Positions 32,927-42,222 of a DNA stretch of 64,000 nucleotides are shown piece by piece. The notes under the pieces are model-generated. The model was not told where the DNA came from and did not search any database. It saw only the letters and a program-made list of their open reading frames with translations. Made by a program: the position numbers and the translations under genes. The stretch's first letter is position 1, and every line of letters starts with the position of its first letter. The stretch is from positions 4,656,501 through 4,720,500 of the forward strand of contig NZ_JAJOZB010000001.1 in NCBI RefSeq assembly GCF_023701745.1, in the 5' to 3' direction. The stretch is from Streptomyces sp. RKAG293. GTDB lineage: Bacteria > Actinomycetota > Actinomycetes > Streptomycetales > Streptomycetaceae.

Positions 32927-32973
32927 CATGGCGGAGGGCGGGAGACCCTACCGGTCTCCCGCCCTCCGCCATG
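32927..32973. terminator. Bidirectional hairpin terminator between MFS and DUF5324 genes
   Basis: A perfect 21-bp stem (each arm begins and ends in CATGGCGGAG / CTCCGCCATG) encloses the 5-base loop CTACC. It starts 15 bases after the MFS stop and is 121 bases from the convergent DUF5324 stop. No T run. Confidence 0.75.
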
Positions 32974-41035: not shown

Positions 41036-41120
41036 TCGTCACCCGGATTAATGAACATCCAACAATAGGCTGGAATTTTCGATTTGCACCGTTCTACGTT
41101 CCGCCCAGGAGGTGGTTCGT

Positions 41121-42077
41121 ATGAGCGAACACATCAAGCTGCCGGCCACGGCGGCTCAGCAGGACGCCATCGATGTCAACGACTTCGTCTACGTGGCGAC
41201 GGGGTCGCGCGTCCGCCGGCTGACCATGCCGGACGGAACCCACTGGTTCCCGGCGGTCGATGTCGCGGTGAATCTGGGGTACACCAATACGCGGCAGGCG
41301 CTCGGCATGCACGTCCCCGCAACATGCGCGACCACGGTGGCGGAACTTGCGTGAACCGTCTCCGGAGCAGACGGTTCACGCAAGTTCGCAGCTCACGGGC
41401 TGAAGAGTCACATGAAGTTGGTGAATCTCCAGGGTCTGGTCCGGCTCGTCAACGCCTGCACGAAGCCGGAGTCCGAGCCGTTCAAGCAGTGGGTGGCGGA
41501 GGTCGTCGTCGCCGTCCAACGGGACGGTTCGTACTCCCTGGACAAGGCGGAGATCCAGCCGACCGCGCCCGGCGCCCCGACCGCCTACGCGATGCCGGGG
41601 GACGTCGCCGACGCGATCGTCCGGCTGGAGGAGCACAACCTCCGGCTGGACGAGGCGCTGCTCACCACACAGCGCGAGGCGCAGGAGACGCGCCGGGACA
41701 TGGCGCGGTCGCAGGACCGGCTGGTCCGTGCCATGGACCGGATCGGTGACACGCTGGACGCCATGCTCGCCCGGCAGGCGCAGCCGGCTCCGGCCGCGGT
41801 GCCGGAGCCGCCCCGGCTCACGGCGGAATCCGTGCTGGCGGACTGGAAATCGCGGCTCTCCGTGACGGAGGACGTCTGGGCGGTGGCCATCGCCATCGCT
41901 CCCGTGCTGGCTGAGCACGGGGAGATCCGGCAGTCGCTGGAGACCATCGCGGCGCGGACCGGCCTGACGGTCCATCGGGTCAACGAGTGTCTGCGGTTCA
42001 TGCGCAAGCACGCCTGCATCCGCTCGCTCGGGGGGACTCACGAGGGGGCGCCGGTCTATGCGCTGAACCGGCAGTAG
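41121..42077 (+). pseudogene. Bro-N domain protein interrupted by an in-frame TGA
   Basis: The frame begins at ATG 41121 with AGGAGGTGG upstream. It encodes a Bro-N (phage-antirepressor-type) N-terminus (DVNDFVYVATGSRVRRLT, GTHWFPAVDVAVNLGYTNTRQAL). A TGA at 41352-41354 stops it after VAELA. The same frame continues as TVSGADGSRKFAAHGLK and MKLVNLQGLVRLVNACTKP, the second half of the Bro-N fold, then a coiled segment and a winged-helix-like C-terminus (ETIAARTGLTVHRVNECLRFM). A CGA-to-TGA change would explain the stop. Reinitiation at ATG 41412 could give a 221-aa product. The upstream 60 bases are unusually AT-rich for this chromosome, which suggests acquisition. Bro-N genes in Streptomyces are accessory regulators of unknown target. 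Confidence 0.8.
41343..41387. repeat. Perfect 19-bp inverted repeat spanning the Bro-N stop codon
   Basis: Arms GAACTTGCGTGAACCGTCT (41343-41361) and its exact complement (41369-41387) enclose the loop CCGGAGC. The TGA lies in the left arm. Its T pairs with A41378 in the right arm. Confidence 0.95.
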
Positions 42078-42183: not shown

Positions 42184-42222
42184 ACGAAGGGGCCACGGAC
42201 GGGATGTCCGTGGCCCCTTCGT
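42184..42222 (-). terminator. pknB terminator
   Basis: A 17-bp perfect stem (arm ACGAAGGGGCCACGGAC) with loop GGGAT, about 35 bases beyond the pknB stop on the minus strand. It could also stop rightward transcription. Confidence 0.8.

Follow-up and report, generated by a model that had tools for sequence, protein, structure and literature searches.

Bro-N gene and inverted repeat in the window

The window analysed here is a 64,000-nucleotide stretch of the chromosome of Streptomyces sp. RKAG293. Between a sortase gene and pknB (neighbours named from sequence), it carries a Bro-N regulator gene that is interrupted by a single in-frame TGA. The protein obtained by reading through this codon belongs to the Pfam Bro-N family PF02498 (1.8e-15; 57.7 bits at a cut-off of 25.6). 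The two halves of the domain, taken separately, reach 24.8 and 26.1 bits, each close to the cut-off, and the TGA therefore splits the Bro-N domain itself. The gene encodes an N-terminal Bro-N domain, a long coiled coil and a C-terminal winged-helix-like domain, the last being visible in the AF2 model of a relative (L026). In PHROGs, the relatives are assigned to phage anti-repressor families. A recent arrival of the gene from a phage or plasmid was rejected on account of its sortase/pknB flanks and of the fact that only distant Bro-N relatives are found in phages, plasmids and viral contigs. The features of the locus are as follows; types a and b are the two sequence types of the repeat described in the next section.

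41121..42077, + strand: Bro-N regulator gene of 318 codons, split by one TGA; PF02498 when read through; intact in relatives
41343..41361, + strand: left arm of the dyad, GAACTTGCGTGAACCGTCT; complementary to the right arm, conserved and covarying in relatives
41352..41354, + strand: in-frame stop codon TGA within the left arm; type b has GAG here, type-a relatives in most cases CGA or CAA
41362..41368, + strand: spacer of 7 nt; the dyad axis is base 41365, the middle base of codon 41364-41366
41369..41387, + strand: right arm of the dyad, AGACGGTTCACGCAAGTTC; complementary to the left arm, conserved and covarying in relatives
41388..41393, + strand: GCAGCT; relatives have here, after the dyad, a nearly fixed GCAGGT, which is also kept in non-coding copies
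41412..42077, + strand: continuation of the open frame beyond the TGA, beginning at ATG 41412 and in the same frame; encodes the second half of Bro-N and the C-terminal domains

A sequence-only reading of this locus had described a perfect 19-bp inverted repeat with a 7-base loop inside the Bro-N coding sequence, with the stop codon at 41352 pairing with A41378. Both observations hold. The arms 41343-41361 and 41369-41387 are 100% complementary over 19 bp, and the TGA lies in the frame of ATG 41121 as well as ATG 41412. The stem which that reading expected from a fold prediction is strong: the RNA fold of positions 41335-41400 has a predicted energy of -40.7 kcal/mol (z = -6.0). At the base composition of the window, perfect arms of at least 19 bp with loops of 3-10 nt are expected 3e-5 times per window. 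By length, the repeat ranks second among the 16 perfect inverted repeats of at least 11 bp in the window, and the genome holds a single copy of it.

Upstream of the Bro-N genes (e.g., positions 41040-41120 of the window; 5830-6000 in L026), TGAAC lies about 75 nt before the start codon and TANNNT-like hexamers occur near -28. This shared pattern looks like a conserved promoter.

The repeat in Streptomyces relatives

One close relative was found, L022/L006 of Streptomyces sp. H39-S7, with 85% amino acid identity and the same upstream neighbours. Its gene is intact and has CGA at the position of the stop codon, and its repeat is a 16/19 quasi-palindrome with three mismatches in the centre. The Bro-N family as a whole is present in about a quarter of Streptomyces genomes (73 of the 296 drawn, E up to 1e-40), at several chromosomal places. 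When homologous codons of 116 aligned Streptomyces genes were compared around one axis, the inverted repeat was found at the same codons, its axis lying in one codon column, at the middle base. Two sequence types share this axis: type a, to which the window gene is similar, and type b, which reads GAGACCGTAAC-TGGAG-GTTACGGTCTC. Pairing at this axis, counted in an initial set of 57 genes, amounted to 82% of positions in type b and 78% in type a, compared with about 25% at other axes; the longest perfect arms within genes reach 20 bp (L105, L136). GC3 is strongly reduced around the dyad, and the wobble bases near it are nearly fixed, GCA and GGT accounting for 96% and 93% of the respective codons.

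The type-c subfamily (L153-L165, mostly about 275 aa) has no repeat, shows ordinary GC-rich codons at this place and lacks the low-GC3 stretch; it offers a natural control for the function of the dyad. The absence of the repeat from relatives, which the sequence-only reading had named as evidence against its account of the stop codon, is confined to this divergent subfamily, and the repeat is no accident of one gene. In several Streptomyces genomes, two Bro-N paralogues are separated by 12-26 kb, the dyad being of type a in one and of type b in the other (G172, L093/L114; G318, L089/L115; G241, L087/L116; G280, L138/L113).

Phage and viral Bro-N genes

Six Bro-N genes from phages and a plasmid were picked as controls, yet five of them carried an inverted repeat at the homologous place. 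In 128 distinct viral Bro-N intervals, the mean best repeat score was 6.76; equal windows taken from these genes gave 4.50 and the synonymous null gave 4.44 (Wilcoxon p about 1e-20). Taken singly, 58 of the 128 genes were significant at p<=0.05. Among the 81 viral genes with a clear repeat, 60 had the axis 4-5 codons downstream of the HVDEEDK motif, and in 53 it fell on the middle base of a codon. At the level of sequence, these comparisons show a dyad that extends beyond Streptomyces to the homologous site in many phage Bro-N genes.

Covariation and codon choice

Covariation was counted in sister pairs, which need no ancestral sequences. In 58 independent Streptomyces pairs, 73 positions had changed on both sides, and 51 of these were Watson-Crick in both genes; slid controls gave 0-6 double changes that kept pairing. 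The 60 independent viral pairs yielded 50 compensatory double changes versus 1-11 in slid controls. In the non-redundant sets of types a and b, the covariation score was matched by none of 500 shuffles and stood far above every slid version. Pairing also exceeded a synonymous null, in which amino acids were kept and codons redrawn: 92% of the type-a genes reached p<0.05, as did 90% of those of type b (82% when codons were drawn by local usage). An artefact of protein composition is ruled out by the synonymous nulls of both the Streptomyces and the viral sets. As the alignments show, the arms differ widely yet stay complementary through paired changes, the choice of codons being tuned to the repeat.

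Constraint on DNA or RNA

In RNA helices, G-U pairs are tolerated. The mismatches within the Streptomyces repeats comprised 32 G-T and 37 A-C, i.e., a GT/(GT+AC) fraction of 0.46 with a null of 0.50; for the viral repeats, the counts were 27 and 45 (0.38, null 0.47). Since G-T mismatches are not favoured over A-C, the constraint would act on DNA rather than on the sense mRNA. Of the two marks of a structured RNA, covariation is present, and the preference for G-U over A-C is not. This argues that selection concerns a DNA-level property and argues against an mRNA hairpin. A transcript selected for its fold, for example one that is processed by RNase III or that serves autogenous control of translation, would agree with the strong predicted RNA fold and with the retention of structure despite sequence variation. 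It appears quite unlikely, however, with the mismatch fraction at or below the null in both sets, with at least one extra copy located upstream of the gene, at -225, and with no Rfam family matched (only a sub-threshold mir-4000, E 0.18).

An intrinsic terminator was rejected as well: the right arm is followed by GCAGCTCACGGG, which contains no T-run, and the repeat lies within the reading frame.

Protein segment encoded by the dyad

Around the dyad, the AF2 model of the Streptomyces protein was of poor quality. A phage Bro-N protein with a deeper alignment was therefore modelled, and its model was confident over roughly residues 1-100. The dyad of the phage gene L192 (nt 610-638) encodes residues 55-64, and the wing strand of the predicted model spans residues 56-63. 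In this model of a winged-helix domain, the helix-turn-helix is followed by a wing hairpin, whose first strand the dyad would encode. The nearest solved folds are listed below.

Granulovirus Orf22 N-terminal domain: Z 9.7, 101 residues, 4.5 A
MBP1 DNA-binding domain (1mb1): Z 8.2, 86 residues, 2.8 A
PCG2 bound to DNA (4ux5): Z 7.8, 97 residues, 3.4 A
DdrC: Z 7.5, 85 residues, 3.1 A

The phage Bro-N domain may thus be called MBP1/PCG2-like (APSES) by likeness of fold only, the Z values being moderate for a predicted model. The wing of PCG2 makes base-specific contacts with DNA (PMC4333399).

Extra copies and spacer inversion

Non-coding copies of the element, i.e., the dyad plus AGCRTT..GCAGGT, adjoin some Bro-N genes. 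Copies beside a gene or at its former place were recorded at L043, L023, L026, L052, L094, L105, L110, L180, L183 and L185, those at L183 being two in tandem; two copies, in G182 and G292, are at places without a full gene. Most were found by searching for the element itself; in the one search with whole genes, the fragments near a gene were likewise centred on the element. Several of the copies look like eroded gene remnants. Some have perfect arms of 18-20 bp (L094, L043), sometimes longer than those of the gene copy. The copies within one genome differ at the variable positions of the arms, and most are self-complementary.

The number of dyads was one in G000, two in G062 and one in each phage record with a match. 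In these four genome and phage records, no dyads were present beyond the gene's own and the relics beside it; thus, they contain no regulon, and an operator regulon was rejected. A second dyad serving as a promoter operator was sought in upstream regions, where only relic-like copies were found, in a few genomes. A REP-like dispersed repeat was likewise rejected in view of the low copy number and the lack of GTAG or CGTC tags at the ends.

The arms GAGACTGTGACT/AGTCACAGTCTC occur with the spacers GGA and TCC, which are an exact inversion of each other. Spacer inversion has been reported as a signature of template switching in yeast genes (PMC8604942).

Origin of the stop codon

The sequence-only reading proposed that, had the ancestral codon been CGA, its C:A pair would be the only imperfection of the hairpin, and that template switching would have repaired it into TGA. 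Such a codon has support: no relative has a stop here, type-a relatives mostly have CGA or CAA, and the nearest one has CGA. The single mismatch is borne out in part, as C:A occurs at this pair in 4 of 24 type-a sequences, but L022 has three mismatches and C:C at this position. As for the mechanism, an adjacent AC-to-GT change separates the window from L022 and most relatives, and both bases match the opposite arm; hence, a single conversion tract could yield both bases in one step, although one base change taken alone is indistinguishable from a C-to-T transition. The repeat is also more perfect in the window (19/19) than in L022 (16/19) and in most type-a relatives, whose arms are imperfect, as in a corrected quasipalindrome. 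The changes that one switch could explain are this dinucleotide in the window and the GGA/TCC spacer elsewhere in the family; single point changes are also possible. The TGA of the window thus fits arm conversion by template switching.

For the stop codon alone, an ordinary C-to-T transition, or an assembly error, that completed the palindrome by chance has nearly an even chance of being the right account. A single change is enough where the right arm already reads TCA, and four type-a relatives are in the C:A state; the neighbouring base, however, has also shifted toward the right arm relative to L022 and most relatives. Programmed readthrough and a truly split gene were rejected, the relatives being intact. 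The window gene has no further stop or frameshift, and its dN/dS versus L022 is 0.28. This lack of other decay indicates that the break is recent or is an error in this one genome. The nonsense codon illustrates the coding cost of perfectly paired arms. A second, degraded Bro-N gene with an in-frame TGA, L146 (G286:C9:293466-294185), was observed in another Streptomyces genome.

Possible function of the dyad

The fixed place of the dyad, its free sequence and its coding cost point to selection on symmetry. We consider the best explanation to be a selected DNA dyad within the Bro-N gene that probably serves for self-binding and owes its maintenance in part to template switching; its probability is put at about 0.45. 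Symmetry would be selected at the DNA level, and a Bro-N dimer, or a partner of Bro-N, would most likely bind the dyad in its own gene and thereby exert autogenous control. Given that the protein is predicted to be winged-helix-like, the dyad most likely exists because the product of the gene would bind it. The same bases would encode the wing, so that the site and its reader could change together, and template switching between the arms during replication probably supplies many of the paired changes. In the window gene, the arms would have become perfectly complementary over 19 bp, with the result that the left arm reads TGA and the gene is split. The window gene is thus best explained as a broken copy of a functional design and not as a device built around the stop codon.

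A more specific proposal, which we regard as doubtful, is a self-encoding operator: the putative Bro-N-bound dyad would be the very stretch that encodes the recognition wing, and each paired change would alter the site and the reader at once. If this is true, paralogues and phages could drift to private specificities, with the paired changes arising from template switching.

Several observations speak against a selected self-binding site. The copies within one genome differ at the variable arm positions, which ill suits a strictly sequence-specific reader. In each of the four genome or phage records examined, the dyad is single apart from relics beside the gene. In addition, type c has no dyad, only 58 of the 128 viral genes are significant individually, and the fold matches are moderate. 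A rival account is a purely mutational origin, in which an early palindrome in a tolerant loop perpetuates itself through template-switch correction without any selected function, the TGA being one such correction. The mechanism is known (PMC7202029, PMC8604942, PMC8794818), and it would explain the concerted multi-base changes between close sisters, the inverted spacers and the longer perfect arms of non-coding relics that are free of coding constraint. It seems rather unlikely all the same, as conversion alone has been argued to leave nearly all repeats perfect (PMC6649704), whereas imperfect arms are common here. Conversion alone thus accounts less well for these arms and for the single fixed codon site across Streptomyces and phages, and the constraint reaches outside the dyad to GCAGGT and the low GC3. 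The dyad might also be a recombination or module-exchange site, a hotspot for swapping Bro-N wings between genes, since a segment surrounding it has been replaced between types a and b, the gene occupies several chromosomal places and relic copies adjoin genes. This is highly unlikely: no recombinase adjoins the genes in the loci read, the arms are free to vary, unlike those of known recombinase sites, and the relics resemble eroded gene remnants.

Comparison with known systems

The coding palindromes of nematomorph mitochondria (PMC6649704) are similar to the Bro-N dyad in being repeats within coding sequence whose arms both encode protein and are kept complementary. Nematomorph palindromes, however, are scattered over many genes, nearly always perfect, and both gained and lost; the Bro-N dyad belongs to one family and one codon position, is often imperfect, and is common to bacteria and phages, so that it falls outside the nematomorph pattern. 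Quasipalindrome hotspots of E. coli (PMC7202029) and yeast (PMC8604942) share with it the transition from imperfect to more perfect repeats, spacer inversions, multi-base changes and coding consequences. Such hotspots are isolated mutational events, whereas the Bro-N family has conserved its repeat at a single site. REP/RAYT and other tagged palindromes (PMC3733652) are similarly short, have a tag-like flank (GCAGGT in Bro-N) and are in some cases located in genes; the non-coding copies beside the gene add to this likeness. Unlike REP/RAYT, the Bro-N dyad occurs in one or a few copies, each of them in or next to a Bro-N gene or where such a gene used to be, and has neither a GTAG or CGTC tag at its ends nor a tyrosine transposase.

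Some DNA-binding regulators have autogenous or internal operators, with a dyad in or near the regulator's own gene. The Bro-N dyad is similar in lying within the gene of a regulator with a predicted winged-helix-like fold. It differs in that the sequence of the half-site is not conserved and that the site would encode part of the DNA-binding domain itself.

No earlier report of the Bro-N dyad was found in open-licence papers, and an earlier report elsewhere is possible; nor did the open-licence papers searched yield any other conserved, covarying coding inverted repeat at one codon position in bacteria and phages. With these dyads, it can be tested cleanly whether functional palindromes are maintained by template switching. 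A further hint that they give concerns the regulation, or private specificity, of a large and poorly understood family of phage antirepressors.

Other inverted repeats of the window

The Bro-N gene contains a second inverted repeat at 41617-41653, TCGTCCGGCTGGAGG-agcacaa-CCTCCGGCTGGACGA, with 15-nt arms that include mismatches. It is located at the start of the coiled coil and recurs there in about a dozen relatives, among them L022, L037, L040 and L049; it may be a simple consequence of the repeated VRLEE/LRLDE peptide. A perfect 17-bp inverted repeat at 42184-42222, between the convergent Bro-N gene and pknB, is probably a bidirectional terminator. The longest perfect inverted repeat of the window lies at 32927-32973, with arms of 21 bp and a loop of 5 nt.
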